From positions 513,073 through 577,072 of the forward strand of contig NZ_LT841358.1 in the NCBI RefSeq assembly GCF_900177045.1: a DNA stretch of 64,000 nt. Reading direction: 5' to 3'. The translations under genes and the position numbers were made by a program. How positions within the stretch are numbered: position 1 is the stretch's first letter; every line of letters starts with the position of its first letter. Shown here piece by piece: positions 1 to 42,068 of the stretch. Origin of the DNA: Candidatus Nitrosotalea okcheonensis. GTDB lineage: Archaea > Thermoproteota > Nitrososphaeria > Nitrososphaerales > Nitrosopumilaceae. The notes below the pieces were generated by a model, which was not told the origin of the DNA, searched no databases, and saw only the letters and a program-made list of their open reading frames with translations.

Positions 1-143
1 AGATTCTTGCAAATGAATTTCCAGAATTAAAAACCAAGCTAAAAAAACATAAAGAAATGCAACACAAATCAGTTCTAAAAGAATCAGACGAAATGAAAAA
101 ACTTGGCCTTGTTCGATTTGCAGATAAGAAACTCAAGAAATAG
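1..143 (+). CDS. C-terminal end of an unidentified Lys-rich protein (partial)
   Basis: Only the last 46 codons are in the window, read from base 3 to the TAG at 141-143. More than a quarter of the visible residues are Lys, there is no Cys, and no motif is recognisable. The stop lies one base from the stop of the convergent cyclase gene. The family cannot be assigned from this tail; that it is coding is inferred from the open frame and the tight convergent packing. Confidence 0.55.
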   Translation, partial: ILANEFPELKTKLKKHKEMQHKSVLKESDEMKKLGLVRFADKKLKK

Positions 144-144
144 A

Positions 145-1419
145 TTAGAGGTGATTAGATATCTGCATTACAGGAATTGAAAAGTATATCGGATATATTT
201 TTCCAGTAGTCGGATGTGTATAGTTCCATCTTTTGTCCTGAGGATCAATTTTCATAAACTGTGTGGCCATATCAGACGATAACATTTTGTATGCTTCTTC
301 CCCTATTGTCATCTGGTTTGGTTGTGCAAGAGGTAAAATCTTTGAAGCAATTGTAATGCTGTGTCCAATCAAATCAGGTTCAGAGCCAAGAACAACAATC
401 CTATTTTTTCCAACATCTATTCCAATTCTTACATTGATTTTCGGCAGACCAAAGCTTGCAAACATGGGATTTAGTGAGTGTGTAACCAGCATGTTCATGG
501 ATCGAGCACAACGTACAGCATTTGCTGCCATATTCCCAAAGTCTTTGAGTTCTGGGAAAAATGCAATCACTGCATCTCCTGTATACTTTAGAACAAAACC
601 TGCATGCTTTGATACTACTACTGACATCTCTTCAGAAAATACCTTGATCAGCCCAGAAAGATCATCGGAGCTAAGTGATGTTGCAATTTTGGTAGATCCT
701 ACAATATCAACATATAGAATGGCTGTATTGATTTCGTTTTCAGGCCACAGACTCAAGAATCTGTTTGAGACGTATTTGAGAAATGCTTGAGAATATGAAT
801 CACTTTGTTTCCTCTTGTATAACGAAAAGTTTCTTTGTATTCTGGTTAGACTTTGAATCACAAATGCGTCATCAGGAGTAAGAATTTGAAAACTTTCAAC
901 CGGTTTTACTTGAGATATTACAGACTCTAAGCTTTCAAGTGGAACAAACTTCTTTTCTATAACATCATAATACCCTTTTTCCCCCTCTATTACTTGTGGC
1001 TCAAGTTTTACTTTGCTAGTGGTAAGACCAAAAGGAAATGATGTTTTTTGTTTATTTGCCGCAATTAGTATGACACTATCATATTCACTTAATGCTAATC
1101 CTTGTTCATTTTCTACTCCTGAACTAATATCAATTATACGAGAGATTGGAAATATTGAAATTTTTCCAGTGTTTGAGTTTGCCCTTATTACTTCAATTAC
1201 ATCATGTTCTGAGTTATCAGATACAGTTGTTTGGAGAATGAACTTGTCCCTGAATTCAGAACGATACATACCAGTACCCTTTGCTGCATGGACTTCAGAG
1301 CCAACCGTGGTTCCCCTACTCTTAACTTTGACAACATTTACGGTAATTCCCATCATGTCAAGAGCGTCAGTTACTGCAGTAAGGTCATTTCTTGGCAACT
1401 CTGCCTCTATTCGTATCAT
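145..1419 (-). CDS. P-II-like domain fused to class III adenylate/guanylate cyclase
   Basis: This 424-residue protein would make a cyclic nucleotide from ATP or GTP. Residues 1-110 read like a P-II (GlnB/GlnK) signal protein: the opening strand and helix (IEAELPRNDLTAVTDAL), a shortened T-loop region around 36-58, the TGKI...IFP segment at 84-91 and the RIIDISSG turn at 94-101. P-II proteins normally sense 2-oxoglutarate and ATP/ADP. Residues 110-225 are an unassigned linker. Residues 232-385 are the cyclase homology domain, with metal ligands D238 (YVDIVGST) and D282 (KYTGD) and a base-selecting Lys at 278. In the later motif (SITIASK, 355-360) the usual Asn and Arg are Thr and Lys, so activity may be weak or altered. 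ATG start at 1419. No membrane segment is visible, so it is probably cytoplasmic. The cyclase assignment is firm; the P-II reading is by eye. Confidence 0.8.
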   Translation of the reverse strand: MIRIEAELPRNDLTAVTDALDMMGITVNVVKVKSRGTTVGSEVHAAKGTGMYRSEFRDKFILQTTVSDNSEHDVIEVIRANSNTGKISIFPISRIIDISSGVENEQGLALSEYDSVILIAANKQKTSFPFGLTTSKVKLEPQVIEGEKGYYDVIEKKFVPLESLESVISQVKPVESFQILTPDDAFVIQSLTRIQRNFSLYKRKQSDSYSQAFLKYVSNRFLSLWPENEINTAILYVDIVGSTKIATSLSSDDLSGLIKVFSEEMSVVVSKHAGFVLKYTGDAVIAFFPELKDFGNMAANAVRCARSMNMLVTHSLNPMFASFGLPKINVRIGIDVGKNRIVVLGSEPDLIGHSITIASKILPLAQPNQMTIGEEAYKMLSSDMATQFMKIDPQDKRWNYTHPTTGKIYPIYFSIPVMQISNHL

Positions 1420-1512
1420 TCTAGTCCTAGATCGTTTATTATAATTAGTAATTTAAACTAGTTTTTTAATTTGCATTTAGTGCCACTTTTAATCACAACT
1501 TTAATTTACGAT

Positions 1513-2070
1513 ATGCCAAATAGTGATGTCTTGGAACTAAGCGAGATTCTGCCCAATATCATTTCAGAGTATGGAGAACAGAGAATACTTTCAGACATAG
1601 TACAAGGCGAAAGCACAGAAGTCATAAAAAGCATTTTTGAACATTGCATGTCAAAAATAGAAAAAACAGACGGAATAAAACCAGACACTTGCATTACAGT
1701 TTCAGAAGGGTTACTACACTATTTGCTTACAATTACCATGATTCCAAGTAAGCGAAAAACTATGTTCCATTCAGTTGATATCGACATTGCAATTCCTGAT
1801 ACCATAACACTTGGAACATCCCCGCAAGATGTCATCGTGATCTCTTTTCCAAAAACAAATGATGTGAATACAATAAAGTCTCAGATTGAAAACATAAAAA
1901 AAGTTCAACCAAACAAAGATAACATATGGGTAGTTCTTGAGGAAGACATGCAGTGCGGTGCAAAAGTATACACGTTAAGTGGTTCTATGACATTTGCAAA
2001 CATAATAAATGATTTAATTAGTTTTGCATCAAATAAGAAACAATCCAAGTTAAAAATTTTCAAGATATAA
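1513..2070 (+). CDS. Conserved-looking hypothetical protein
   Basis: A 185-residue protein of unknown function. I start it at the ATG at 1513; an upstream TTG at 1471 would add 14 residues with no coding look. It is acidic, has no signal peptide or membrane helix, and contains alternating hydrophobic/acidic strands around SVDIDIAIPD and DVIVISFPK that resemble a Rossmann-like or nuclease-like core, but no catalytic motif can be assigned. It is divergent from the cyclase gene and its end overlaps the end of bioD by 11 bases, so it abuts the biotin genes without an evident role in them. Confidence 0.7.
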   Translation: MPNSDVLELSEILPNIISEYGEQRILSDIVQGESTEVIKSIFEHCMSKIEKTDGIKPDTCITVSEGLLHYLLTITMIPSKRKTMFHSVDIDIAIPDTITLGTSPQDVIVISFPKTNDVNTIKSQIENIKKVQPNKDNIWVVLEEDMQCGAKVYTLSGSMTFANIINDLISFASNKKQSKLKIFKI

Positions 2071-2752
2071 GAGATTTCAAATTTATATTTCTTTCAATGT
2101 GTGGAATCATTGTTTCATAGTTTTCATAATCTTTCACAAATGGTAACACACCCAAAATTGGAATGCCTGTAATTTCATGTATCGTGGTTGGTGCATTTAT
2201 TTCTTCAGGTCCGCCATTCTCATCATAGTTATTTACAATAATTCCCATGATTGGAATTTTGTAATTGTGACATGTATTGACTGTCATCACAGTATGGTTC
2301 AGAGTTCCAAGAGTAGGTCGTGTGATTATGATTGTTTCAAGGTCCAATTCTTTTATCAAATCAGCTACAAAGTAATCCCTACTTAGAGGAGTCATTATCC
2401 CCCCTATACCTTCAACAAGCATCAGGTCATGCTTGCTTTTCAATTTTGCAAACTTTTCAAAGATTATTTTTTTATCAAACTTGAGATCAAGTATTTTGCT
2501 TGCGTCATATGGAGAAACTGGCAACGGCATAAATATTGGATTTATTTCGTCCTCAGGATCATCCACCTCAGCAGCACGATGTAAGATTGAAACATCGGAT
2601 GACTTGAAGCCAATTTTTTGGACAATCCCGGTTGCAATCGGCTTCATAACACCAACATCTATTCCCAATTTTTGCATACATGCTGCCAATGCAGATGTGA
2701 TAGTGGTCTTACCAACACCAGTATCAGTGGCAGTAATAAAATATGATTTCAT
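2060..2752 (-). CDS. bioD: Dethiobiotin synthetase
   Basis: BioD closes the ureido ring of dethiobiotin from 7,8-diaminopelargonic acid, CO2 and ATP, the penultimate step of biotin synthesis. The N-terminus carries the P-loop TATDTGVGKTT, and a second conserved stretch (LVEGIGGIMTPLSRDY) matches the family's substrate loop. At about 230 residues it has normal family length. I use the ATG at 2752; a TTG at 2761 adds three residues. It is divergent from bioA with about 70 bases between starts, an arrangement that suggests shared control of the biotin genes. Confidence 0.95.
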   Translation of the reverse strand: MKSYFITATDTGVGKTTITSALAACMQKLGIDVGVMKPIATGIVQKIGFKSSDVSILHRAAEVDDPEDEINPIFMPLPVSPYDASKILDLKFDKKIIFEKFAKLKSKHDLMLVEGIGGIMTPLSRDYFVADLIKELDLETIIITRPTLGTLNHTVMTVNTCHNYKIPIMGIIVNNYDENGGPEEINAPTTIHEITGIPILGVLPFVKDYENYETMIPHIERNINLKSLIS

Positions 2753-2821
2753 GAGAGACAATCGTTAATGTTGTTTAATAACCCACCCTATCATTATTAA
2801 TTCGATTTGTTGAAAAATTCA

Positions 2822-4132
2822 ATGCATAGTTTTGTCTGGCATCCTTATACTCAGATGAAGGACTGGAAAAAATTTGACATAATCACAGAAGGCAGAGGAA
2901 TGTGGCTTCATGACACGCATGGTAATGCCCTAATGGACGGCGTTGCAAGCATGTGGTGCAATGTATGGGGTCATTCCAATAAAGAATTGATAAAGACTAT
3001 CAAAAAACAAGCAGAAAAACTACAACATTCCTCATTATTTAATTTAACAAACGACAAGGCAGAAGATCTTGCAGAAAAATTAGTAAAACTAGCCCCCGAG
3101 ATGTACAGAGTATTCTATTCTGATGATGGTTCCACTGCAATGGAGATTTCTGCAAAAATGGCTTTGCAATACTGGAGTAACATGGGTGAGAAAAAGACAA
3201 AATTTGTGTCACTTGAAAACGGATACCATGGTGATACAATAGGTGCCATGTCACTTGGATATGTACCCCTTTTCTTTTCTAAATTCAAGTCTTCATTGTT
3301 TCCAGTTTTAAGAACTCCATCACCAAACAGATATCGAATTCCCAAAGGTTATTCATTTGAGGATTATCAAGAATTTTGCCTAGAAAGAATTGAGCAAGTT
3401 TTTTCAAAAAATGACAATATTGCGGCATTTGTAATGGAAAGCGGGGCACAGATAGCTGGAGGCGTCATCATATATCCAAATGGATTTCAAAAAAAGATCA
3501 GTAAAATATGCAAGAGACACAACGTCTTATTCATACTTGATGAAATTGCAACAGGATTTGGAAGACTTGGATCAATGATCGAATACAAAAACCAAGAAAG
3601 CATTCCAGACATAGTATCATTTGGCAAGATGTTATCTGGAGGATATTTACCTCTTGCAGCAACACTTGCAAGCAAGAAAATCTATGACTCTTTTCTTGGA
3701 GAGTATAAAGACATGAAGCATTTTTTCCACGGACATACATTTACTGGAAATCCCTTGGCATGTGCAACCGCTCTTACAAACATTTCATTATACGAAAAAT
3801 ACAATCTAATATCAAAGATCAAAAAACGCGCATCCCAGATGGAATCACGCATCAAGGAAATTTCCAACATGGATCTAGTAGGAGATGTAAGACATACAGG
3901 CATGTTGATGGGAATTGAGCTTGTATCAAATAAAAAGACAAAAACTCCAATATCTCCCAAGAAACGATTTCCACAAAAGATCTTTGTAGAGGCAAAAAAA
4001 CATGGAATTTACCAAAGAACACTAGGGCACATAGTAATGGTCATTCCACCACTTGCAATATCAGAAAAAGAATTAGATTTTCTGCTAGATGGTACTATTA
4101 CAACAATAAAAAATGTCTCATCACAAATGTAA
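2822..4132 (+). CDS. bioA: Adenosylmethionine-8-amino-7-oxononanoate aminotransferase
   Basis: BioA transfers an amino group from S-adenosylmethionine to KAPA to give diaminopelargonate. It is a class III PLP aminotransferase. Visible signatures are the N-terminal FVWHPYTQMKDW typical of BioA, the LDEIATGFGR segment with the PLP-contacting Asp at about residue 240, and the Schiff-base Lys in SFGKMLSGGY at about 269. The ATG at 2822 is preferred because the BioA N-terminal motif begins right after it; TTG codons lie just upstream. It is 436 residues, normal for the family. The gene is followed by a small zinc protein and then bioB and bioF on the same strand. Confidence 0.96.
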   Translation: MHSFVWHPYTQMKDWKKFDIITEGRGMWLHDTHGNALMDGVASMWCNVWGHSNKELIKTIKKQAEKLQHSSLFNLTNDKAEDLAEKLVKLAPEMYRVFYSDDGSTAMEISAKMALQYWSNMGEKKTKFVSLENGYHGDTIGAMSLGYVPLFFSKFKSSLFPVLRTPSPNRYRIPKGYSFEDYQEFCLERIEQVFSKNDNIAAFVMESGAQIAGGVIIYPNGFQKKISKICKRHNVLFILDEIATGFGRLGSMIEYKNQESIPDIVSFGKMLSGGYLPLAATLASKKIYDSFLGEYKDMKHFFHGHTFTGNPLACATALTNISLYEKYNLISKIKKRASQMESRIKEISNMDLVGDVRHTGMLMGIELVSNKKTKTPISPKKRFPQKIFVEAKKHGIYQRTLGHIVMVIPPLAISEKELDFLLDGTITTIKNVSSQM

Positions 4133-4195
4133 AAACCACATTCATTCTAGCACGAGACACAAATTATTATATCAGCAACACCAGATCATATCCAA

Positions 4196-4351
4196 ATGCC
4201 ACAGATTCGAATTTGCCCAACATGTAACAAAGTCTTACAAACCGGTGAGACTCACAAGTGTTCCCATATAGCTTCAGAATATGCCACATGTGAAAAGTGT
4301 GGTGAAAAATACCTAAAATCAAGACAGCATATTTGTACCACAAGAGTTTAG
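4196..4351 (+). CDS. Small two-zinc-ribbon protein
   Basis: A 51-residue protein with two metal-binding halves: CPTC followed by HKCSH, then CEKC followed by HIC. The spacing looks like two small treble-clef or zinc-finger units. It sits between bioA and bioB in the same orientation, with 63 bases before it and 78 after, so it could be transcribed with the biotin genes. Function is unknown; nucleic-acid binding or metal handling are possible. The regular Cys/His pattern and open frame support a real gene despite its size. Confidence 0.6.
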   Translation: MPQIRICPTCNKVLQTGETHKCSHIASEYATCEKCGEKYLKSRQHICTTRV

Positions 4352-4429
4352 ATCTATTGTAAACCATTACGCTACACAAGGTTTACAGTTAAAATAATCT
4401 TAATTAATGGATTTAAAACAGAGGAATCA

Positions 4430-5410
4430 TTGACTAGCGAAACTGATTTTATAATTTCATGCAAGGACAGAGTCTTATCAGGACATACCATTTCCCAAGG
4501 TGAAGCTGAAAGACTTATCAACGTGTCAGATGATTCGTTGCACACTTTATCTGATGCTGCCAATGAAATTACCAGAAAACTGTGTGGAAACATGGTTGAT
4601 GTAGAAGCCTTGATAAATGCAAAAAAAGGCAAGTGTCAAGAAGATTGTTCATTTTGTTCCCAGTCTGCATTTTTCAAGACAGGTATTGACACATACAAGC
4701 TGCTGCCACCAGAAACAATAGTACAAAATGCCATGCTTGCAAAAGAGGACGGAGTGAAAAGTTTTTGTCTAGTATGCGCATGGCGTGGTCCTACAGAGAA
4801 AGACTTTGAACAGATTTCGTCAATCATAGAGAAAATAAACCGTGAGGTTGGAATAGAGGTCAACTGCTCACTTGGTTTTATCAATGAAGAGATGGCTATA
4901 AAATTAAAAAAACTAGGGGTGAAACGTTACAACCACAATCTAGAGACACCGAGAAGTTTTTTTGAAAAAATATGCACAACCCACACGTATGATGACAGGA
5001 TGAAGACAAATCTGACTGTAAAAAAGGTAGGCCTTGAATTATGCTGTGGTGGAATAATTGGCATGGGAGAAACAAGAATGCAACGATTAGAGTTAGGACT
5101 TGATCTTGCAGGACTTGAACCAGAGGAATGTCCAATCAATATGTTAGTACCTCAGAAAGGAACACCACTCGAACTTCAGACAAGACTCTCAATATCTGAG
5201 ATACTACGAACTATAGCTGTTTTTAGATTTTTGATGCCAAAAACAATACTCAAGATTGCAGGTGGAAGAGAAGTCTACCTCATAAATGACCAAGAAAGAG
5301 TTCTCTTGGGCGGTGCAAACGGAATCATTACTGGGGGATATCTCACCATAGGCGGAAACAAACCGACAGATGATTTTCAAATGATATCAAAGATAGGCCT
5401 TGAAGCCTAG
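4430..5410 (+). CDS. bioB: Biotin synthase (radical SAM)
   Basis: BioB inserts sulfur into dethiobiotin using a radical SAM [4Fe-4S] cluster and a sacrificial auxiliary cluster. The radical SAM motif CxxxCxxC is present (C69, C73, C76; GKCQEDCSFCSQS). Later segments LGFINEEMAIKLKKLG, YNHNLET and GGIIGMGET are characteristic of BioB. At 326 residues it has normal length. The start is a TTG at 4430, preceded by GAGG at 4421-4424, a plausible ribosome binding site. Its last bases overlap the start of bioF, so the two are translationally coupled. Confidence 0.96.
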   Translation: MTSETDFIISCKDRVLSGHTISQGEAERLINVSDDSLHTLSDAANEITRKLCGNMVDVEALINAKKGKCQEDCSFCSQSAFFKTGIDTYKLLPPETIVQNAMLAKEDGVKSFCLVCAWRGPTEKDFEQISSIIEKINREVGIEVNCSLGFINEEMAIKLKKLGVKRYNHNLETPRSFFEKICTTHTYDDRMKTNLTVKKVGLELCCGGIIGMGETRMQRLELGLDLAGLEPEECPINMLVPQKGTPLELQTRLSISEILRTIAVFRFLMPKTILKIAGGREVYLINDQERVLLGGANGIITGGYLTIGGNKPTDDFQMISKIGLEA

Positions 5411-6527
5411 AACCAGTTTCATCAGCAAAAGATTAGAACAGATAAAGAAGGCAAATCTGTACAGAACACTGGTTTACAACAAGGTATCAGGTCCATACAT
5501 TACAATTAAAGGAAAAAAATTGATCAATTTATCATCGAATGATTACTTGGGATTAAATTCTACGCCCACTCTATCACAAATACAATCAAGTTCTAGATTA
5601 ATTTCAGGGAATGATGTATCTTTTAAAAAACTTGAAAACAATCTCGCACGCCACAAATCAAAAAATGCCGCACTGGTTTTTCCAACAGGCTACATGGCAA
5701 ACCTCGGTGCAATCTCAATTTTAACACAAAAAAATGATTTAATTTTAAGTGATGAATTCAATCATGCAAGTATAATTGATGCATGTAGATTATCAAATGC
5801 AAAAAAAACAATCTACAAACATAACGATGTCTCAGATTTAGAAAAAAAACTGCGCAAAAAAGCACAGCGTAAGTTTGTGGTAACTGAGGGAATATTTTCA
5901 ATGAATGGTGACTTTGCCAGACTTGATGAAATAACGAAACTATGTCAAGAAAATAATGCGTTTCTCTTGCTTGACGATGCACATGGCGACTTTGTAGCAG
6001 GTAAAGATGGAAAAGGTTCTGCAGATCATTTCAGAGTTACAAAAAATGTTGATATATACACAAGCAGTATGAGCAAGGCACTGGGAGTATTTGGTGGCTA
6101 TATTGCTGCAAGCAACGACATAATCGATCTTGCTGTAAACACCTCGCGGCCATTCATTTACACTTCTGCACTACCAAGTTTTTTAGCAGACATGGCACTG
6201 AAGAGATTTTTGTCAGATAGAGAAAAGAAGCGACTAGAATTATGGAGTAAGATAGAACAATTCAGCAAGGGTTTGCAGTCAATTGGATACAAAATGGAAT
6301 CACCAAGCCAGATAATGCCAGTCATAATAGGATCCGAGAGAAAGGCACTTGAGTTTGGTAAGTATTTGAAAAATAATGGCATATTTGCCCAGCCGATACG
6401 CTATCCCACCGTGAGTTTAGGTTCTGCCAGAATAAGGATATCTGTCACAAATTGGCTTTCCGAAGACATGATATCAAAAGCATTAGACATATTTGAAAAA
6501 GCTGGCAAGAAATTTGGTATAACGTAA
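5400..6527 (+). CDS. bioF: 8-amino-7-oxononanoate synthase (KAPA synthase)
   Basis: BioF condenses pimeloyl-CoA (or its ACP form) with alanine to give KAPA, the substrate of BioA. It is an alpha-oxoamine synthase with PLP. Family signatures are the N-terminal LSSNDYLGL segment, the substrate loop around FPTGYMANLG, the LLDDAHGDF Asp-His motif and the PLP Lys in TSSMSKALGVFGGY. It is 375 residues, as expected. The TTG start at 5400 lies inside the last codons of bioB. With BioF, BioA, BioD and BioB present, the biotin ring pathway is complete here, but no bioC, bioH or bioW for pimelate supply is in the window. Confidence 0.95.
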   Translation: MKPRTSFISKRLEQIKKANLYRTLVYNKVSGPYITIKGKKLINLSSNDYLGLNSTPTLSQIQSSSRLISGNDVSFKKLENNLARHKSKNAALVFPTGYMANLGAISILTQKNDLILSDEFNHASIIDACRLSNAKKTIYKHNDVSDLEKKLRKKAQRKFVVTEGIFSMNGDFARLDEITKLCQENNAFLLLDDAHGDFVAGKDGKGSADHFRVTKNVDIYTSSMSKALGVFGGYIAASNDIIDLAVNTSRPFIYTSALPSFLADMALKRFLSDREKKRLELWSKIEQFSKGLQSIGYKMESPSQIMPVIIGSERKALEFGKYLKNNGIFAQPIRYPTVSLGSARIRISVTNWLSEDMISKALDIFEKAGKKFGIT

Positions 6528-6586
6528 CCACAGTTTGAAACAGATTTTGAACAAGGTATTAATAAAAAAACAGCGTCAATTGAACC

Positions 6587-6894
6587 ATGGTAGAACTGAC
6601 CATGGGAATTGCAGCCATAGCAGAACTCGGTCATTTCTTGCACTGTGCATATTGCCAGTGATTCCTGCATTTCTTGCACATATTTCAGGCACTATATTGA
6701 CAGAACTCCAAAGAAACAATGAAATGATAACATTGTCACAAGCGATGATGCAGATCAAGATACCAAATGTGGTAGTAGCCGTAATTTCAGAAAATAGGTT
6801 ATACAACATCATTTTGTCAAAGCAGGCAGGTTCTCACACTCTTACCATAATAGGCCACCCTGGCTTTCAAATCTACACGTTTACCTTCGGATAA
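6587..6894 (+). pseudogene. Collapsed ccdA/thioredoxin pseudogene
   Basis: The segment starts like the cytochrome c biogenesis membrane protein CcdA encoded at 35644-36375: MVELTMGIAAIAELG in one frame, then after a frameshift SFLALCILPVIPAF and ISGTILTELQRNN. About 50 codons in, it jumps directly to the last 40 residues of the membrane thioredoxin encoded at 34494-35639 (SENRLYN, AGSHTLT, GFQIYTFTFG). So a ccdA-thioredoxin pair seems to have lost most of both genes in one deletion, plus one frame change. A continuous frame from 6535 to 6894 runs through most of it but cannot make a functional protein. It lies directly after bioF. Confidence 0.8.
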
Positions 6895-6904
6895 TCATTA
6901 TATA

Positions 6905-6932
6905 ATGTTTCTAAATTCGAATTTAGAAACAT
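6905..6932. repeat. 28-bp perfect palindrome (copy 1)
   Basis: Perfect inverted repeat with no loop, centred on TTCGAA at 6916-6921; each arm is ATGTTTCTAAATTC or its complement. The core TTTCTAAATTC/GAATTTAGAAA recurs at 10138-10167. It lies between the ccdA/thioredoxin remnant and cdvB, 115 bases upstream of cdvB. Zero-loop symmetry fits a dimeric protein binding site better than an RNA hairpin. Confidence 0.7.
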
Positions 6933-7046
6933 ATTGAATCATCATTTCAGGTCTAGACTGTAACCCCTGTCAGCTGTCACTATAGTTACACATCAAGTAA
7001 GAACATGGTTGTTTAAAATAACATTTCAAATCAAGGCACAGTAAAA

Positions 7047-7685
7047 ATGAATTTTACAAACAAATGGAATGTGCAAAAAGAGAGTATATCTCAAAAGGTA
7101 ATAGACAAGGTAAAGCCAGATGCTCCACTCAAGCCCAAAATTGATGAGGCACAAAAGAAATTACAATTACAAATTATAAAACTTGATTCCATCGCAAAGA
7201 AATTAAAGGAAAAAGATGAATTTATCTTCAAAAAAGTAGTCGAGGCAGTAAGATCACATAATAAGTCATATTCTAATGCATATGCTACCGAATTACACGA
7301 GATTAGAAAAATGAATAACATGGTTACAGGTGCAAAATTAGCCATGGAGCAAATTCAGCTACGATTAAACACGATATCAGAACTTGGAGATGTAGTAGTA
7401 ACACTCAGTCCTTGCATGTCAATAATAAAAGGACTCGGGACAGGCCTAAATGGATTAATGCCAGCAGCAGATTCATCCATGGCAGACTTGTCAAACATAT
7501 TAGGAGAAATAATGTCAGGCGCATCTGTAAACGGCGACAATTCATTTGTCACAGACGTATCAAACTCAGAGACAAACCAGATATTGGAAGAGGCAAACGC
7601 AATATTAGAAGGGCATGTAAGACAGAGTATCCCAGATCTTCCCCCAACATTGGGTTCTACAACAAAAGCGCCAGAGCCTATCTAG
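7047..7685 (+). CDS. cdvB: CdvB-type ESCRT-III-like cell division protein
   Basis: A 212-residue, mostly helical Snf7/ESCRT-III-fold protein. CdvB homologues polymerise at the membrane during archaeal cell division and are remodelled by the CdvC ATPase. The hallmark is the helical stretch AMEQIQLRLNTISELGD followed by VVVTLSPCMSIIKGLG, typical of archaeal CdvB paralogues; the N-terminal half is basic and coiled. The acidic C-terminus (residues about 170-212) ends in a Pro-rich tail (SIPDLPP) that may be a CdvC-interacting region. ATG start at 7047. No cdvA or cdvC is adjacent, so this is probably one of several paralogues. Its end overlaps the end of the next gene on the other strand by 8 bases. 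Confidence 0.85.
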   Translation: MNFTNKWNVQKESISQKVIDKVKPDAPLKPKIDEAQKKLQLQIIKLDSIAKKLKEKDEFIFKKVVEAVRSHNKSYSNAYATELHEIRKMNNMVTGAKLAMEQIQLRLNTISELGDVVVTLSPCMSIIKGLGTGLNGLMPAADSSMADLSNILGEIMSGASVNGDNSFVTDVSNSETNQILEEANAILEGHVRQSIPDLPPTLGSTTKAPEPI

Positions 7686-8019
7686 AGCGCTTTTTACTCA
7701 ACTCTACAAAGTGTTTCTTGATTCTAGATATTGTAGGATAACTATACCCTAGTTTTCTATAATTTGCAATCATCATCTTCCAGTTTTTCAACCTCCATTG
7801 GGCCTGCTCAGAAGTCACAGAATGGATCTCCTTGTTTATTATACTCTTCCTGCCCACCTTGAGTACTCCTGCATCTTTTGCAGTCCATCTACTGTTTGCA
7901 AAATTCAGACCTGACAGGATTTCCTCTACAGGCATTTCAGCAAAGTGCTCCTGCAACTTTTGTATTTGTGCAATTGTGGGTTTTTTGTTTACAATGAGGC
8001 TTATTTCAAATCTTTCCAT
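7678..8019 (-). CDS. Hypothetical basic protein, possible DNA binder
   Basis: A 113-residue basic protein with no recognisable family. The C-terminal third (YRKLGYSYPTISRIKKHF) could fold as a helix-turn-helix, and aromatic plus basic residues (SRWTAKDAG, QAQWRLKNWKMM) suggest nucleic-acid contact; both are inferences. The ATG at 8019 sits directly below a half-copy of the palindrome seen at 6905 and 10138 (CTCGAATTTTGAAATATC, 8021-8038), so this protein could bind or be controlled through that element. It converges on cdvB. Confidence 0.65.
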   Translation of the reverse strand: MERFEISLIVNKKPTIAQIQKLQEHFAEMPVEEILSGLNFANSRWTAKDAGVLKVGRKSIINKEIHSVTSEQAQWRLKNWKMMIANYRKLGYSYPTISRIKKHFVELSKKRSR

Positions 8020-8020
8020 A

Positions 8021-8038
8021 CTCGAATTTTGAAATATC
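8021..8038. promoter_or_regulatory. Half-copy of the TTCGAA palindrome
   Basis: CTCGAATTTTGAAATATC resembles the right arm of the 10138-10167 palindrome (one internal A/T change, first base T to C). It lies immediately upstream of the ATG of the minus-strand gene starting at 8019, where a leaderless promoter or operator would be expected. The left arm is not conserved. Confidence 0.4.
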
Positions 8039-10137: not shown

Positions 10138-10167
10138 AATATTTCTAAATTCGAATTTAGAAATATT
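10138..10167. repeat. 30-bp perfect palindrome (copy 2)
   Basis: Perfect loop-less inverted repeat centred on TTCGAA at 10150-10155; each arm is AATATTTCTAAATTC or its complement. It shares a 22-base core with the palindrome at 6905-6932 and starts five bases past the 3' end of tRNA-Asn. It could be an operator, a transcript end or a mobile-element remnant. Confidence 0.7.
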
Positions 10168-33076: not shown

Positions 33077-33655
33077 AAAATAAAAACATATTCAAGATTT
33101 GATCAAAATATCTTTCTAATGTATCATCAACCCAATTGTTTCATAAGTGAACACATTGAGAACAAAGTAAAAAAGACAAAACTTATCCGGTAATCCCTAT
33201 CATGTAGACGAAAGTTTATCATTTTATCTTCTTTATGATTATTAGAAAATATGTGAAAAATAACCCAAATTTGAGTTTAATATATTCCAATTAAAGTACA
33301 ATGAATGAATAATCAATAAGATGTGTGAATGAAAATCAGATAATGGGTGGATTTGTCATGCAAGTTGTCACACTGGTTTTAACTAGTCATAACTAAGATT
33401 TTTTACAACAAGTCTATTAGTGTTATTTTAGTGGTTTCTTTGACTTAATATTATGATACTAGCAAAGCAATATCATTCATTCTTTACTATCTTGGATTTT
33501 TACACCTGCATTATTCATTGGTTCATGCAGCCACTAACTCCACCTGATGGTCTTTTACAATAATCAAAACTGATGAAGATATACAAAAACCCTATCCACC
33601 AACCAAAAGTAACAGCGACATAAATCAACAAAAACGATCTACAGGATGTAGTTTC
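33077..33655. other. Intergenic stretch, no gene seen
   Basis: About 580 AT-rich bases between the Lrp regulator and the Met-rich secreted protein. I see no coding frame with protein-like composition on either strand, no tRNA and no strong hairpin. The TTTACAAWTGTAAA element that marks the copper region is not present here. Confidence 0.5.
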
Positions 33656-34189
33656 CTATTTTGCAATCAATCCAATGTCTTCGTGATTATTCATCATTGA
33701 CATCATGGATTTTCCTGCAGGTATGACATGCGTGTGCAACGTGTAATAGCCTGGCTTGTCAAGAATAAAACTCACAACATACTTGCCGTTTCCAATGTTC
33801 TTTGCGTCAAACATCGGTCCTAGCATATCCATTGTACTCATAGGTGCACCTCTCTCGATTCCAACTACGATTCGGGCATCTGTCAAGGGCCTGCTAGTTG
33901 TTTTGTCCAGAACAAGAAGCGTTATTGACTGTATTTTCCCAACAGATACTGCTTGACTGGATTTTATCTTTATTATAACATCTTGTGGAGAATCACTCAT
34001 CATTTTACAATTCATTCCAGAACCGGAACCGCCCATCGTGTTGCCGGACATCATGTTTTTCATCATGGAATCCATGTTACCAGAGCTCATCATCGAATAA
34101 GCGTCGATGTTGTTTTGCGATACCAGGACAAAAACACTTGCTGCAAACACTCCTAATGTAACAATAGATATGATTGTCCGTTTTCCCAT
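33656..34189 (-). CDS. Met-rich secreted protein, probable copper binder
   Basis: A 177-residue exported protein. A signal peptide (MGKRTIISIVTLGVFAASVF) is followed by a Met/Asn/Gly/Ser-rich segment (residues about 32-66; MMSSGNMDSMMKNMMSG) of the kind that binds Cu(I) outside the cell, then a beta-sandwich resembling FixH/YtkA-like domains (VLDKTTSRPLTDARIVVGIE and GKYVVSFILDKPGYYTLHTH). A cluster of Met and His closes the protein. ATG at 34189. The operator at 34235-34248 and an ATTCATATAT box (34218-34227) lie just upstream, placing it in the copper regulon. Confidence 0.8.
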   Translation of the reverse strand: MGKRTIISIVTLGVFAASVFVLVSQNNIDAYSMMSSGNMDSMMKNMMSGNTMGGSGSGMNCKMMSDSPQDVIIKIKSSQAVSVGKIQSITLLVLDKTTSRPLTDARIVVGIERGAPMSTMDMLGPMFDAKNIGNGKYVVSFILDKPGYYTLHTHVIPAGKSMMSMMNNHEDIGLIAK

Positions 34190-34234
34190 TTCTACAATCT
34201 GTTCTACTCACGCGAGATATATGAATACAACATT

Positions 34235-34248
34235 TTACAAATGTAAAG
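34235..34248. promoter_or_regulatory. Copper-regulon operator, site 1
   Basis: Perfect palindrome TTTACAAATGTAAA between the divergent Met-rich gene (start 34189) and YHS gene (start 34285). On both sides an AT-rich TATA-like box follows within about 5-8 bases. The core TACAnnTGTA is the same as the cop box of bacterial CopY, although no CopY is present here. Confidence 0.8.
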
Positions 34249-34284
34249 TACTGAATTTATCTATCACTTTTCTGTAATACGCCC

Positions 34285-34422
34285 ATGGCTAGAGATCCAG
34301 TATGTAAAATGGAAGTGGATGAAAAGAGTGCGCCCTCATCAAATCACGGAGGTCAGACCTACTATTTTTGCTGTCCATCCTGCAAAGGCGCATTCGAGAA
34401 GAATCCTACCAAATATGCTTGA
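34285..34422 (+). CDS. YHS/TRASH small metal-binding protein
   Basis: A 45-residue protein with the YHS/TRASH signature: DPVCKMEVDE near the N-terminus, then YYFCCPSCKGAFEKNP. The Cys set (C7, C29, C30, C33) suits Cu(I) or another soft metal. ATG at 34285 lies about 25 bases after AATTTAT (34255-34261), which follows the operator at 34235-34248. It is probably a metallochaperone or sensor part of the copper response. Confidence 0.85.
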   Translation: MARDPVCKMEVDEKSAPSSNHGGQTYYFCCPSCKGAFEKNPTKYA

Positions 34423-34493
34423 ACGCAGCAACTCCCAACAGAAGATGTAGTAAATTTGCCAGAAAATTCTTTTTATTCTACTCCATTTCTGGC

Positions 34494-35639
34494 CTAGCCA
34501 AAAGTAAATGTGTAGATCTGAAAGCCTGACTGTGCTGTGATTGTGAGTGTGTGTGAGCCGGCAGTGCTACTGGAGACCAGATTGTAGAGTCTGTTTTCTG
34601 AAACATGAACAGTACCGTTTTGAACATCTGCGCCTGCATCACTCGCACTTATTGGATTTCCGTCTAACAGGATATGAAGGTCAGCTTTGTTTGCAGCCAC
34701 TATATGGACATCCTTTGCAAAGTATGGTAAAACTATCTTACCACTTTGTGACACAAGCTTCATGCTGTCTGCAAGGTTCTGCCACTGTCCTTCCAGATAG
34801 AAATGATCTTGTTGCAGATCAGATGGTAGTGAATAGCTCACAGTCTCCTCGGGCTTGAAGCCTTCAGAGTTTCCAATGAAGCTTCTGCCAGTCACAAAAC
34901 TGTATCCAAAGTAGAGCTCTGGTGTCTGTTGGTTTGCAAACTGGTGCTCTTTTATGTTGACAAGGGATTGGTCTACGTTAATGCCCAGCCCAAGACGCTG
35001 GCTGCGTTCATCTAAAAGCTGCTGTATTGCTTTTTCAGTCTCATTATAATCTCCCTCTCCAAAATGAGTGTGTCTTATGTGCCCAGTTGAATCTGCAAGA
35101 TATTCAGCAGGCCAATATCTGTTACCAAAGGCATTCCATGTGGCATGGTCATTGTCAAGCACAACAGGATATTGTAATCCATATTTTGCTACTGCCATCT
35201 TGACATTGTTGATATCCTTTTCAAACTCAAATTCCGGGGAATGAACTCCTATAATCAATAGCCCCTTGTCTGAATATTTTTCGTTCCATGCTTTTAGATA
35301 TGGAAATGTCCTAATGCAGTTGATGCAGCTATACGTCCAGAAATCGTAGAGAACCACTTTGTCTTTCATTGCAGCTTTGAGGTTTTCTGGTGTCGTGTTG
35401 ACATATCCTGATATGCCTGTAAGATCTGGCGCTATTGGATACTGACTTTCATCTATTTGCGTAGTCTTTGTACTAGATGCGCTGGAATCTACGTTTGTAG
35501 ATCCCTGTTTGTTATTGTTTGTAGGTACTTGGGTTACAACTTTTGGTTTGTCAAGTGTTGTAAAGTAATAACCAATTCCTCCAATTCCTACTGAAACAAC
35601 TATCGCAATTATTATGGCTGTTTTTATCTCGGTTCTCAT
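34494..35639 (-). CDS. Membrane-anchored thioredoxin-like protein (DipZ C-terminal type)
   Basis: A 381-residue protein anchored by an N-terminal helix (residues 8-27) with an outside thioredoxin-like domain: VVLYDFWTYSCINCIRTFPY contains the redox CxxC. Conserved GVHSPEFEFEKD and YPVVLDNDHATWNAFGNRYW match the AhpC/TlpA-like domain of DipZ proteins. The C-terminal ~150 residues form a beta-rich domain ending GFQIYTFTFG. It lies four bases after ccdA and is likely reduced by it. A collapsed copy of this pair is at 6587-6894. Confidence 0.9.
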   Translation of the reverse strand: MRTEIKTAIIIAIVVSVGIGGIGYYFTTLDKPKVVTQVPTNNNKQGSTNVDSSASSTKTTQIDESQYPIAPDLTGISGYVNTTPENLKAAMKDKVVLYDFWTYSCINCIRTFPYLKAWNEKYSDKGLLIIGVHSPEFEFEKDINNVKMAVAKYGLQYPVVLDNDHATWNAFGNRYWPAEYLADSTGHIRHTHFGEGDYNETEKAIQQLLDERSQRLGLGINVDQSLVNIKEHQFANQQTPELYFGYSFVTGRSFIGNSEGFKPEETVSYSLPSDLQQDHFYLEGQWQNLADSMKLVSQSGKIVLPYFAKDVHIVAANKADLHILLDGNPISASDAGADVQNGTVHVSENRLYNLVSSSTAGSHTLTITAQSGFQIYTFTFG

Positions 35640-35643
35640 GATA

Positions 35644-36375
35644 TCAACTCAAAAGAAGATTATTCAAAAGTGGAAAACTTGCTATTGCTGCAAGCTGGTT
35701 GGTAAACACCAGTACTCCAAGTATCACTATGAGCGATCCCATTGCAACAGAATAGTACTTGAGATGTTTGCTTATGTATTTTATCAATCTGGTAAATCTG
35801 GAAAAGAATAACCCCATCAAGACAAATGGAACTCCAAGACCTGCTGAATAACCTAGTAACAATACAAAAGCGTGGCTTGGAGTAGTAGCTGCCAAAGTAA
35901 GAATGCTTCCAAGAATAGGACCTATGCACGGAGTCCAACAAGTAGCAAATGCCAATCCAAAAACAAAAGAGAGCGGATAGCTAACTTTGGTTCTGTTTGG
36001 GAGAATTTTCTTTTCAAAATTTAATCTTGTGATTTTTGTTGACAATAGCATGAATGCGCCAAAGCTTATTATGATTATACCTCCAACATGATTGAGATCC
36101 GAGGTAATGCCAGAAGCTACTTTTGAAAGTACGCTGTTTAAAATCACACCAAATATTGAGAACACTACGGAAAATCCTAGGACAAAAAATATCGTATTCA
36201 TCAAGATATTGAGCCTATTGGCTGCAAGATTTACTATGCCGTTGTTTCTTTGAAGTTCAGTTATGGTAGTGCCTGATATGTATGCAATAAACGCAGGTAT
36301 TACAGGCAGTATACATGGAGCTAGAAAAGATCCCAGACCTGCTAAAGCCGCAATTGCAATGGTAATCTCCTGCAT
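35644..36375 (-). CDS. ccdA: CcdA-like thiol:disulfide transmembrane protein
   Basis: A 243-residue membrane protein with six helices. The redox Cys are in SFLAPCILPVIPAF (residues about 16-29) and FATCWTPCIGPILGS, the CcdA/DsbD-beta pattern that passes electrons from cytoplasmic thioredoxin to the outside. It is the middle gene of a minus-strand set (36429-36953, ccdA, thioredoxin) whose operator is at 37001-37014. ATG at 36375. Confidence 0.92.
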   Translation of the reverse strand: MQEITIAIAALAGLGSFLAPCILPVIPAFIAYISGTTITELQRNNGIVNLAANRLNILMNTIFFVLGFSVVFSIFGVILNSVLSKVASGITSDLNHVGGIIIISFGAFMLLSTKITRLNFEKKILPNRTKVSYPLSFVFGLAFATCWTPCIGPILGSILTLAATTPSHAFVLLLGYSAGLGVPFVLMGLFFSRFTRLIKYISKHLKYYSVAMGSLIVILGVLVFTNQLAAIASFPLLNNLLLS

Positions 36376-36428
36376 GACTTCAGGTCTTCATCATTTTATT
36401 AAGACTTTGTTCCAAATCTCTTCCAAAA

Positions 36429-36953
36429 CTATTTTGTGTTGAAAGAAAGTGTGATCTTGTCGCCATCCTTGAAGACATAGTTTTGATAATCCGGGAATGG
36501 TTGTCCGTTTACAGTCAATGTTACCTGTTTGTAATCACTCAGATTTAGGCCCCAGATGGCGAGCAACTGGCCAAGGTAATAGTCCTTGACCTTGTATGAC
36601 TCTACATGTATCATACCAGAAGTGTCATGCGTGTGTAGGGGAGCCATGCCTGTCATGCCGTATGAATCAAGCGAATGATCATTCCACAGTGTGGAATCAA
36701 TTCCAATCTGTGCCGGTACTGTAGTATCTTTTCCGTCTATCACAAGCGTGAGATGCGTGTGCAGGTGCATCATACCCATGGAATCAATAGGCACAGAACC
36801 GCTAGGTGTCTTGGAAGCAGGCGAGCTAGATGTAAGCATAATCAAGCTAACGCCGATTGCCAACGCCGCTAAAATTCCAATTGCCACGAACGCTTTGATT
36901 TTTTTCTTCGAGTTTCCAAAGTTGCTTTTTGGTTCTTGTCCATCGTGCTTCAT
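36429..36953 (-). CDS. Membrane-anchored His-motif protein (HTHDTSG family)
   Basis: A 174-residue protein: a charged cytoplasmic start, one membrane helix (residues about 24-43), then an outside domain with MMHLHTHLTLVIDGKD and PLHTHDTSGMIHVES, followed by YYLGQLLAIWG. The repeated His motifs suggest metal binding outside the cell. Relatives are at 29679-30319 (frameshifted) and 44610-45174 (broken). No family name is recognised. ATG at 36953, about 30 bases below ATAAATAT (36982-36989), with the operator at 37001-37014. It begins the ccdA/thioredoxin operon. Confidence 0.8.
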   Translation of the reverse strand: MKHDGQEPKSNFGNSKKKIKAFVAIGILAALAIGVSLIMLTSSSPASKTPSGSVPIDSMGMMHLHTHLTLVIDGKDTTVPAQIGIDSTLWNDHSLDSYGMTGMAPLHTHDTSGMIHVESYKVKDYYLGQLLAIWGLNLSDYKQVTLTVNGQPFPDYQNYVFKDGDKITLSFNTK

Positions 36954-37000
36954 TTTATCTTCAATGGACTACAGGTGGTGTGGATATTTATCACTGGTAG

Positions 37001-37014
37001 TTTACAATTGTAAA
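37001..37014. promoter_or_regulatory. Copper-regulon operator, site 2
   Basis: Perfect palindrome TTTACAATTGTAAA, 11 bases upstream of the TATA-like box of the minus-strand operon starting at 36953. Confidence 0.8.
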
Positions 37015-37099
37015 ATCAATGTAGATGTTAAGCACAATCTAAAATTCGTCTTACAATAACTCTGATTATAAAAATTGAATGAATCTATTTTGGATTTAA

Positions 37100-37270
37100 T
37101 TAACAGCAGCAACCGCTGCCTTGATCCTCATCCTTCTGTCTTGTCATTTGCATATCTGTATATTTTTGTGCATGTTCATCAGAACAAAAAGATTTTCCAA
37201 ACCTTTTGAATGGAGTGTCTTTCTTGACATCCATTCCACAAACAGGACAGTGTTTTGTCATTCCAAACAT
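37100..37270 (-). CDS. copM: TRASH-domain small protein (CopM-like)
   Basis: A 56-residue protein with a TRASH metal-binding domain: HCPVCGMDVKKD near the N-terminus and KSFCSDEHAQKY at 27-38, and an unusual C-terminal GSGCCC. In Sulfolobus a 59-residue TRASH protein, CopM, is encoded beside the CopA ATPase and the CopT/CopR regulator; the same three kinds of gene are neighbours here. It is probably a copper chaperone. ATG at 37270, leaderless from ATTAAAATAT (37293-37300), with the operator at 37309-37322. The symbol is by analogy. Confidence 0.78.
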   Translation of the reverse strand: MFGMTKHCPVCGMDVKKDTPFKRFGKSFCSDEHAQKYTDMQMTRQKDEDQGSGCCC

Positions 37271-37308
37271 GTCTTTACTAGAAAACTTATGATATTTTAA
37301 TGTGGAAG

Positions 37309-37322
37309 TTTACAAATGTAAA
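37309..37322. promoter_or_regulatory. Copper-regulon operator, site 3
   Basis: Perfect palindrome TTTACAAATGTAAA, eight bases upstream of the TATA-like box of the CopM-like gene starting at 37270. Confidence 0.8.
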
Positions 37323-37458
37323 AAATTTTTCAGGAACATGTGATGGAGTAGACAGGCCCGCAACGGTCATTTCTTGTGATGGAACAACCATAGGGAAATC
37401 TGGCCTGAAATCAGTTTGACACAATAATATAAAGAGATTTTTCCAAATCAATTCAAAA

Positions 37459-39909
37459 TCAGTTGTTCTTTCTTCTAGGAGTCCATCTCTTCATAGCAAG
37501 CGAGCTCATGGTGACAGAGACAGAGCTTGCTGCCATGGCAACTCCTGCAAGTGCAGGATACAATAATCCTATTGCGGCAACGGGTATGAGAACAGCGTTA
37601 TACATGAAAGCATAAGCTAGATTTTGTTTTATCTTGCCTACTGTCTTCTTTGCAATCTCTATTGCGGTGACCACATCGCGGATATCGTCCCTGACTAGTA
37701 TGACTTTGCCAGATTCTATTGCTATGTCCGTGCCAGAACCTATTGCCATCCCTACATCTGCAGCAGTAAGGGCAGGAGCATCGTTGACTCCATCCCCTAT
37801 CATGGCGACCTTCTTGCCTTCGGTTTGGATCTTTTTTACAACATTAACCTTTCCAGACGGCAAGACATCTGCAAATATTCTCTCTATTCCTATCATCTGA
37901 GCAACCTTTCTAGCAGTCTTTTCATTATCTCCTGTAAGCATAATCGATTCTATTCCCATGGACTTTAAGATCGATACAGCTTCCTTTGCTCCTTGCTTTG
38001 GTGTGTCAAGCAATCCTATGACTCCAAGAACAGCGTTGTCAACTGAAACTATCACCGCAGTCTTTCCCTCTTCCTGAAGTTTCTCAACTGTCTGTTTCGA
38101 AGATGTTGTGTCTATGTTCTGGTTTTGCATGAATGACAAATTGCCTACTTTCAAATTCAAATCATTGTATGCTGCCATCACTCCAAGCCCTGCAACTGCT
38201 TCAAAGTATGATGGGTCGTATACCTTCACTCCCTGATTTTGTGCATGTATAACTATTGCCTTAGCCAGTGGGTGCTCGGAACCTTTCTCTGCCACTGCAG
38301 CAAGAGACAAAGTTGTGATTCCATTTTTGCTACCGTCAGTACTAGTTATGGTGGCAAGCTCTTTTATTTCTATGACATCAGTTACTTGTGGTTTTCCCTG
38401 CGTTAATGTTCCAGTCTTGTCAAATATCGCAACAGAAGTCTTGTTGAGCAACTCCATTGCTTCTCCACCCTTGAATATCACACCATTTGATGCTCCCTTA
38501 CTCATACCTACCATGATTGCAGTTGGAGTTGCAAGACCCAGAGCGCATGGACAAGCAACTACTAGCACAGCTACTGCTGGAATCATTGCGCTTGCGATAG
38601 CTCCATGTGCCACAACAAAATACCAGATAAGAAAAGTTGACAGGGAAACAATCATCACGGCATATGCAAAATATCCTGCAACTTTGTCCACCATCTTTTG
38701 TAAAACTGGTTTTTTGCCCATTGCTTCTTCTACAAGCTTGACTACTTGCGAAAGAAAAGAGTCTGACCCAACCTTAGTTGCTTTTACTAGAATCATTCCT
38801 TCTCTGTTTATTGTTCCCCCTATCACACCGTCTCCAACTTTCTTTGTCACAGGGACAGATTCCCCAGTTACCATGGATTCATCCACTGCGGATGCTCCAA
38901 GAACGACAACAGAATCAACTGGAATCTTCTCCCCAGGTCTTACCACGAGAATGTCTCCAGGTTGGATAAGTTCTATTGCTACCTCAGTCTCCTCGCCGTC
39001 CTCTTTTCTGATTCTTGCAGTTTTTGGTTGGAGCTCAAGCATCTTTCTGATTATAGAACTAGTCTTGCCCTTTGTCTTGAGTTCCATCCATTTTCCTAAA
39101 ATTATGAAAGTGACAACAACAGCTGCTGCATCGTAATACATGTTGTGCCAGATAGGGGATGGAAACGTGTAGAATGCACTAAATACGTAGGCAGTAGTAG
39201 TACCAAGCACTACGAGTGTGTCCATGTTTGCAGATCTCATCTTTGCAATTCGAAATGCGCCAGTGTAGAATCTGTTTCCGGTGACAAACTGAACTACTGA
39301 CGCAAATGCAAACATGGCATATGCGATAATACTTGTACCAGCAAACGGCAAAAATTTGAAGATCTCGGGATAACTGAACAACATCACAGGAACCGTGAAA
39401 ATGACTCCTATGATGAACAGGTGTTTGAGTTTCTTTGCCTCTATGTCTTGTGATGATATTCCAAGATCCTCGCTTAGTACCTCGTATCCAAGTTCTGTAA
39501 TCTTCTTTCGAATGTCAGCAAGTGACAGTAGGGCAGAATTGTATTCTATATTAAATTGCGAACTTCCATAATTAACTGAAGCAGATTTAATTCCGTCTAG
39601 GTGTAATCTTTGCTCAAGTCTTTCAGCATCGGTGGAATCAGAAATTCCACCCAACTTCAAAGTTAATTTTTCATAAACTACCTTGTAACCTATTTCTTCA
39701 ATTGCTTTTTCAATTGAATCCAGCCCAACTTTTGTTTGATCAAATTCTAAGGTAGCCTTTTCGGTAGCAAGGTTTACCTCCACCTTGTTTACACCCGGCA
39801 CCTCTGAAACTGATCTCTGGATGGAGCTAACACATCCAGCGCAGTGCATGCCGCCTATCTTTAGCACGGTGCGCTTTGTGCTTTCTTGCTTGGATACCTC
39901 TATTGTCAA
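37459..39909 (-). CDS. copA: Copper-exporting P1B-type ATPase
   Basis: An 816-residue Cu(I) pump. An N-terminal HMA domain binds copper through C23 and C26 (GMHCAGC); a second HMA-like domain (about 81-145) lacks the CxxC. The membrane metal site is CPC at 453-455 ([15 protein letters not shown]), the phosphorylated Asp is D497 (DKTGTLT), the actuator has MVTGESVP, and [16 protein letters not shown] is the hinge. The YN and MxxSS residues of the last helices match Cu(I) pumps. TTG start at 39909, with TATA-like TTAAGTAAAT at 39931-39940 and the operator at 39950-39963. It is divergent from the HTH-TRASH regulator. Confidence 0.96.
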
Positions 39910-39949
39910 ACGGTATCATATACCACTGACATTTACTTAACTATGGGAC

Positions 39950-39963
39950 TTTACAATTGTAAA
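39950..39963. promoter_or_regulatory. Copper-regulon operator, site 4
   Basis: Perfect palindrome TTTACAATTGTAAA between copA (minus) and the HTH-TRASH regulator (plus). TATA-like boxes flank it at nine bases (copA side, 39931-39940) and eight bases (regulator side, 39971-39978), so one site could serve both promoters. Confidence 0.85.
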
Positions 39964-40000
39964 GTGTACAAGATATACATCCATGAGACGTAATCTAATC

Positions 40001-40438
40001 ATGCCATTTAGGTTGGACGATGTCGACATTGCGGTATTGGAATCTCTGTTAAAAGACGGAAGAAAGTCCTTCAGGCAGATCTCAAGGGAGATAGGTGCAA
40101 GCACCCCTACTGTGAAGCAGCGATACGAGAAACTGGTCAGCATGGGCCTAATCAAGGCGGTAATGCCAATCGTAGACATGGACATGATTGAGAACAAAGA
40201 AAGTGAGAAGCTTGATCAGATAAGGCACGAAACAATCAAGCATCACAGCGTCAAGATCAGCAAGACCATGATGATAAAGATGGTCTGCGATTATTGCAAG
40301 GGTCCGATACACGAGAAACCACACATGTTGAAATTTGCAAACCTTGAAAGATTTTTCTGCTGTACATCGTGCAAGTCATTATACAAGGAAAAATACAAAG
40401 GAAGAATAGATTCGCTTGAGAATAAAAACAATTTCTAG
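40001..40438 (+). CDS. copT: HTH-TRASH copper-responsive regulator (CopT/CopR-like)
   Basis: A regulator of about 145 residues: an Lrp-type helix-turn-helix (DDVDIAVLESLLKDGRKSFR, then ISREIGASTPTVKQRYEKL) followed, after a linker, by a C-terminal TRASH domain (CDYCKGPIHEKP and FFCCTSCKSLY) that should bind Cu(I). This is the layout of archaeal CopT/CopR. The ATG at 40001 lies about 26 bases after GATATAC (39972-39978), fitting a leaderless start; an ATG at 39983 adds six residues. It is divergent from copA across an operator and is the natural candidate to bind all seven operators. The symbol is by analogy. Confidence 0.88.
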   Translation: MPFRLDDVDIAVLESLLKDGRKSFRQISREIGASTPTVKQRYEKLVSMGLIKAVMPIVDMDMIENKESEKLDQIRHETIKHHSVKISKTMMIKMVCDYCKGPIHEKPHMLKFANLERFFCCTSCKSLYKEKYKGRIDSLENKNNF

Positions 40439-40483
40439 GACAAACGGTCAATGCATAAATAAGTTCCACCTGTATATACGACA

Positions 40484-40876
40484 ATGTCTGACGATATTTC
40501 TGTGAACGAGCTTGACAACATACAGAAAACCATGCAGTCATACATCAACAATTTTGATGAGATCGACAAAGAGATTTGCAATCTATTACAAAATTCAAAT
40601 GCTAATGCAACTGCACTAGAAGAACATTCGGTAGAAACACAAAAATCTATACTTGATGGGAGGGACAAAGCCCTGTCCATTGGATTCATAGCAATATCCG
40701 CAGTTGCCCTTATCATCAGGAGATTTCGTACTGCGTCAAAATTGGTAGATCTTTTCATTCATCTGGTCAATCGTTTTGTTTCGCTCATCACACGATACGA
40801 GAAACTTTTCAAGATAAACTCTATTCAGGTCACAATCAGCCTCACTCCGTCTGTAGTAGTTACTTTCAAACCGTAA
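40484..40876 (+). CDS. Hypothetical protein with one membrane helix
   Basis: A 130-residue protein: an acidic coiled N-terminal half (residues 1-58), one hydrophobic helix (ALSIGFIAISAVALIIRRF, about 64-82) with Arg at its end, then an amphipathic basic C-terminus. The family is not recognised. ATG at 40484, after an ATAAATAA box near 40456. No operator is present, so although it lies inside the copper region its control may differ. Confidence 0.65.
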   Translation: MSDDISVNELDNIQKTMQSYINNFDEIDKEICNLLQNSNANATALEEHSVETQKSILDGRDKALSIGFIAISAVALIIRRFRTASKLVDLFIHLVNRFVSLITRYEKLFKINSIQVTISLTPSVVVTFKP

Positions 40877-40935
40877 AATGTTCTGGTGCAATTCTGCACA
40901 AATATTATTAACGGGAACAAAATACAGCTGCTCAT

Positions 40936-41163
40936 ATGATGTCTTGCGGCACAGGAAAAATGTCAAAAAAGAAAATTGCAATCTTTTCAGCAGCAGGTAT
41001 TGGAACAGCAACAATATTTTATTTTACATTTGCAACACACAATCCAACTCTTGCGGCAATGGCGCCGACATTTCTTACACTGGGCCTGTGTCCTGCAATG
41101 TGTGCTGCTATGGGTGGAGCAATGTGGTTTGGCAACAAATTTGCCAAGAAAAAGAAAAATTAG
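40936..41163 (+). CDS. Small membrane protein with Cys/Met helix
   Basis: A 75-residue protein with an N-terminal MMSCGTGKM, one helix near residues 15-32, and a second helix whose sequence LGLCPAMCAAMGGAMWFG places a C-x3-C and several Met within the membrane, suiting Cu(I) passage or binding. It ends in a Lys-rich tail. ATG at 40936 or 40939. It lacks its own operator; one begins six bases after its stop and serves the next gene. The copper role is an inference. Confidence 0.65.
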   Translation: MMSCGTGKMSKKKIAIFSAAGIGTATIFYFTFATHNPTLAAMAPTFLTLGLCPAMCAAMGGAMWFGNKFAKKKKN

Positions 41164-41168
41164 TTTTC

Positions 41169-41180: not shown

Positions 41181-41220
41181 AGGTTTGTATTAAAATATCT
41201 CGCCTTTAGAAGGATATACA

Positions 41221-42066: not shown

Positions 42067-42068
42067 CA

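Follow-up and report, generated by a model that had tools for sequence, protein, structure and literature searches.

A collapsed ccdA-thioredoxin pair beside bioF in Candidatus Nitrosotalea okcheonensis and its probable displacement by an island-borne homologue

Introduction

How does a genome come to hold one intact ccdA-thioredoxin pair and, 28 kb away, only the two ends of another? CcdA/DsbD-type pairs move electrons through the membrane to thiol-redox partners on its outer side. We analyzed a stretch of 64,000 nucleotides from Candidatus Nitrosotalea okcheonensis (assembly GCF_900177045.1, contig NZ_LT841358.1, positions 513,073 to 577,072, forward strand), hereafter the window, whose coordinates are used throughout. 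The window genome is a single contig of 1,972,585 bases, 99.8% complete, and among the search matches its nearest named relatives are Candidatus Nitrosotalea genomes. The initial annotation had read the short stretch at 6587-6894 as a ccdA start fused to the tail of a membrane thioredoxin, with nearly everything between deleted and one frameshift, and had concluded that the intact pair at 34494-36375 once had a second copy here. Here we ask what this stretch is, which of the two pairs is native and how the other may have come in.

Results

The stretch after bioF is a pseudogene of a collapsed ccdA-trx pair

The remnant joins the first ~50 codons of ccdA, from an ATG at 6587, to the final stretch (roughly 50 codons) of a gene for a DipZ-like membrane thioredoxin (trx), which ends with a stop codon at 6892-6894. 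Its parts are the following:

6587-6745, plus strand: ccdA remnant, 5' end of the gene (about 50 codons), with frame breaks at 6630/6631 and 6720/6721
6735-6742, plus strand: deletion junction, sole surviving copy of the direct repeat GTYACAAG, with 1571 bp missing relative to loci L052 and L053
6743-6894, plus strand: trx remnant, 3' end of the DipZ-like thioredoxin gene (Thioredoxin_10 C-terminal domain), with an extra base at about 6768-6776

Using tblastn, each intact protein of the window matched the remnant separately. CcdA residues 16-91 gave an E value of 1e-12, driven by the segment SFLAxCILPVIPAFxAxISGTxxTELQRNN, while Trx residues 346-381 matched with 72% identity and an E value of 6e-12. 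The trx part also scores above the Pfam cut-off for Thioredoxin_10 (8e-07). At the nucleotide level (blastn), the intact pair aligned with the remnant at 72% over 188 nt, ~50 nt 5' of the start codon included, and in a second match at 74% over 68 nt. The match is due neither to low-complexity sequence nor to chance, and the proposed join of the two genes is confirmed. The annotated damage to the frame also stands, but it consists of three single-base indels rather than one: the losses at 6630/6631 and 6720/6721 and the gain near the start of the trx part. In addition, the conserved PC motif of CcdA reads LC. Because the lengths of the three indels and the 1571-bp deletion add up, by coincidence, to a multiple of three, the late part of the remnant lies in one open frame. 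Close relatives have an intact orthologue at the same site (L052 in genome G003, L053 in genome G006 and about 25 members of the genus); together with the lesions and the loss of domains, this makes 6587-6894 a pseudogene formed by deletion.

The missing segment was flanked by short direct repeats

The intact pairs of L052 and L053 hold the 8-mer GTTACAAG twice, once in ccdA (offset 151, counted from the start of this gene) and once in trx (offset 1722 on the same count). In the window a single copy is left, GTCACAAG, at 6735, preceded by ccdA sequence and followed by trx sequence; nearly everything between the two ends is gone, as annotated. We computed the chance of a random deletion ending in such an 8-mer repeat as about 3e-4; hence, the segment was probably lost by slippage or recombination between the repeats.

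The codons that remain show an excess of amino-acid changes. Among window-specific codon changes, 7 of 16 are nonsynonymous, whereas the two relatives with an intact pair have 1 of 15 and 1 of 16, and dN is 0.052 in the remnant versus 0.011, a pattern of relaxed selection in a small sample. The dS between the remnant and its relatives (0.35-0.41) is similar to that of the neighboring bioF (0.37-0.45). Taken together, the similar dS and the excess of amino-acid changes in the window place the decay of the pair after the split from G003 and G006.

The remnant sits at the conserved site of the pair

The remnant is flanked by two genes that keep their place in the relatives:

5400-6527, plus strand: bioF-like gene (class I/II aminotransferase; Pfam Aminotran_1_2, 3e-55), left neighbor, the same in 80 loci
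7047-7685, plus strand: cdvB-type ESCRT-III gene (solved archaeal CdvB/CdvB2 chains, E 1e-31 and 9e-20), right neighbor, the same in relatives

An intact pair after bioF, which the initial annotation suggested looking for in related strains, turned out to be the rule: bioF, ccdA, trx and cdvB follow one another on one strand in 60 of the 80 bioF loci, and 12 further loci end at a contig edge or show part of this order. The intact pair is present in Ca. Nitrosotalea devanaterra (L058) and in G003 and G006, the two nearest relatives, which are sisters of the window genome in the bioF tree (SH-aLRT 99). The same-site pairs of these two match the remnant at 87-89% on both sides of the junction (246 and about 328 nt), as against 72-74% for the window's own intact pair. 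From these values and the shared flanks, the remnant is the resident, vertically inherited pair and not a copy of 34494-36375.

Other loci have also lost the pair. Downstream of bioF, it is eroded or absent, with differing remains, at L063 (G024), L073 (G062), L077 (G063), L080, L094, L120, L121 and L128. In G063 and in five more distant genomes, cdvB lies downstream of bioF with no pair between them, showing that the ancestral site can be lost without the island cassette described below.

The interval between the end of trx and cdvB contains a perfect 22-bp palindrome, TTTCTAAATTCGAATTTAGAAA, at 6908-6929. Allowing up to 3 mismatches, the genome holds just one more copy, at 10142-10163 next to tRNA-Asn, 3.2 kb from the first; a diverged form lies at 8013-8034. 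Most genomes of the genus have 2-5 copies, the majority of them grouped at this locus in a span of about 4-5 kb, and where ccdA-trx is eroded or deleted, the one preceding cdvB is still there. This palindrome may act as a cdvB operator or as some other local site of DNA-protein contact. At about 6955-7025, before cdvB, a TGTAAC...GTTACA dyad is followed by a TTTAAA box, both kept in nearly all relatives.

The intact pair lies on a copper/thiol-redox island

The intact genes, hereafter pair 2, have the same domain make-up as the resident pair:

34494-35639, minus strand: DipZ-like membrane thioredoxin (Thioredoxin_10 4e-34, Redoxin 6e-12; M. tuberculosis DipZ 3e-62)
35644-36375, minus strand: ccdA (DsbD_TM 8e-08)

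Among solved structures, the pair-2 Trx matches PDB 2hyx and 5cyy (E 3e-62). In the CcdA tree, the pair-2 protein of the window forms a clade with those of G005, G024 and G062 (SH-aLRT 99), separate from the group of the 27 ancestral-site CcdA proteins of the genus (SH-aLRT 99), which gives the two pairs different ancestries. The Trx tree groups the four pair-2 proteins less cleanly. Relative to the ancestral-type proteins in close relatives of the window genome, identity is 77-79% for CcdA and 62-66% for Trx. The carriers of pair 2 are scattered on the bioF tree: the window genome (G000) groups with G003 and G006, G005 with G018 and G062 with L075 and G063, while G024 stands alone.

Pair 2 is part of a larger block, delimited by comparison with relatives and by Pfam families:

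33117-47685: genomic island of ~14.5 kb with pair 2 and copper/redox genes
33656-34189: YtkA-like protein
37459-39909: P-type copper-type ATPase
39983-40438: HTH+TRASH regulator
41221-42066: rhodanese
45406-46053: DsbA-like protein

The island also encodes proteins with no assigned family. Up to 33.1 kb and again from 47.7 kb on, the window can be aligned to relatives; the interval between these borders is 207 bp long in G031 and 64 bp long in the complete chromosome of G035. G005 and G062 share most of the island genes and their order, with different neighbors. G+C content is 39.9% in the island, and 37.4 and 38.3% in the flanks. We saw no integrase-like family in the island and no direct repeats of at least 10 bases at its ends. 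Given the empty site in G031 and G035, the other neighbors in other carriers and the scattered distribution, the best explanation is that pair 2 is a foreign-looking replacement, horizontally acquired on the island. The roles given in the initial annotation are thereby exchanged: the supposed second copy is the resident pair, and the pair at 34494-36375 the newcomer.

In the nearest relative, G003, the island site is occupied by different sequence with no match, at least 1 kb long (L158 positions 1-1030, contig C60), so this site may be a hotspot.

The ancestral pair is eroded in two other carriers

Among the other carriers of pair 2, only G005 has both pairs intact. At the ancestral site of G024, only Trx residues 265-381 are left, and in G062 only residues 323-381, with no part of ccdA in either. 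These two genomes and the window genome lie on three separate branches and their breakpoints differ, which implies separate losses or at least separate final deletions. Among genomes of the genus with a readable site, the ancestral pair is eroded in three of the four carriers and in none of the 25 non-carriers (Fisher p about 0.001), a test that ignores kinship and includes several incomplete MAGs. The p value becomes 0.004 when G063, with no trx at all, is added as a non-carrier loss, and 0.009 when G008 is counted as a carrier that kept its pair.

G008 was left out of the main count: its second trx, on contig C44, has no cassette neighbors and falls outside the pair-2 group, and the bin is 7% contaminated. 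This extra DipZ-like protein (L144) is 71% identical to that of the window and is perhaps a third type or contamination. A 99% complete member of the genus, G011, has a fragment of the cassette at a contig end (L146, contig C60, positions 1-7699) with the C-terminal part of trx, YHS and a YtkA-like gene; no bioF match was found in this genome.

From the pattern at the ancestral site, the genus seems to have undergone the same swap of the resident for the island pair on at least three occasions. We lean slightly towards a broader reading, in which repeated, independent losses of the deeply conserved ccdA-trx operon in Nitrosotalea are driven by a mobile copper/thiol-redox cassette, a replicated natural experiment in which G005 would have been caught before the loss.

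Discussion

We propose that the acquired pair made the resident one redundant and that the latter decayed into the pseudogene at 6587-6894, to which we give a probability of roughly 0.85. The island with its related ccdA-trx would have entered the lineage after the split from the nearest known relatives and before the loss. Pair 2 would then have supplied the function of the resident pair, with CcdA passing electrons across the membrane to the extracytoplasmic DipZ-like thioredoxin; such a substitution is suggested by the shared domains and the pattern of loss. Since pair 2 would supply the same function, selection on the resident pair would have been relaxed, and this pair would have gained point changes and indels and lost 1571 bp between the two copies of GTYACAAG by recombination or replication slippage. 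Against this proposal, G005 retains both pairs, so that redundancy need not end in loss, or has not yet done so there.

One could argue that the two pairs arose by duplication. A duplication within this lineage, after which one copy died, would explain the identical gene order and the similarity that reaches the region just 5' of ccdA. Yet the remnant is far closer to the same-site pairs of the sister species than to the intact pair of its own genome, the pair-2 CcdA belongs to a separate clade common to distant relatives, and close relatives do not have the island. The trees refute a recent duplication, and we find this origin quite improbable. Unlikely too is an older duplication, in which both pairs would be ancient in the genus and differentially lost with no horizontal transfer. 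The presence of both in some genomes (G005) and the pair-2 Trx proteins, which are not cleanly monophyletic, agree with it. Nevertheless, pair 2 would have to be lost in some 25 lineages, and neither the scattered cassette, with its different neighbors in G000, G005 and G062, nor the near-empty island site of G031 and of the complete G035 chromosome is what it would lead one to expect.

Two further readings concern the remnant itself. An open frame of 119 codons spans the join and its trx end still matches Thioredoxin_10, as a functional small fused protein might; but the frame starts at a TTG upstream of ccdA, leaves the first ccdA codons out of frame, and includes neither most of CcdA nor the thioredoxin active site. 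Besides, the fused frame is absent from all the other genomes among the 61 searched, and the excess of amino-acid changes speaks against a protein under constraint. We regard such a protein as highly improbable. The other reading is an artifact of sequencing or assembly, as an assembler could in principle slip at short repeats and so create a deletion; the three further indels and the excess missense changes in the remaining pieces, however, fit real decay, the genome is a nearly complete single contig, and a second intact pair of the ancestral type is found nowhere in it. An error of this kind is hardly credible.

What the analysis adds is that the native and the borrowed pair can be told apart, correcting the view of a simple duplicate. 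A pseudogene left after an apparent xenologous displacement is a known kind of event, and such pseudogenes are ordinary; only the recurrence at one conserved site may be worth following for a specialist. If the association holds in more genomes, one could test on several independent branches whether the acquisition of a redox module with its own copper transporter makes the conserved resident operon dispensable in acid-soil ammonia oxidizers.

Within the literature searched, no paper on CcdA in Nitrosotalea was found. A large gene-content reconstruction (PMC7554672) describes the Trx and Dsb families as acquired repeatedly and continuously across AOA lineages, which fits the acquisition of pair 2 on an island; in its account of these families, this displacement and its remnants do not appear. 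As in xenologous (non-orthologous) gene displacement, an acquired homologue elsewhere coincides here with the loss of the resident, and a remnant stays at the old site. What differs is that here one cassette seems tied to the disappearance of the same resident pair in three distinct branches. Regarding the proteins, the pair resembles DipZ/CcdA-TlpA systems (M. tuberculosis DipZ, PDB 2hyx and 5cyy), with a CcdA-type membrane protein and a thioredoxin ending in Thioredoxin_10, but these archaea encode the halves in two genes that lie side by side. Nor is the remnant a fusion of the DipZ type: such a protein would join complete domains, whereas the remnant keeps just the opening of CcdA and the tail of the thioredoxin.
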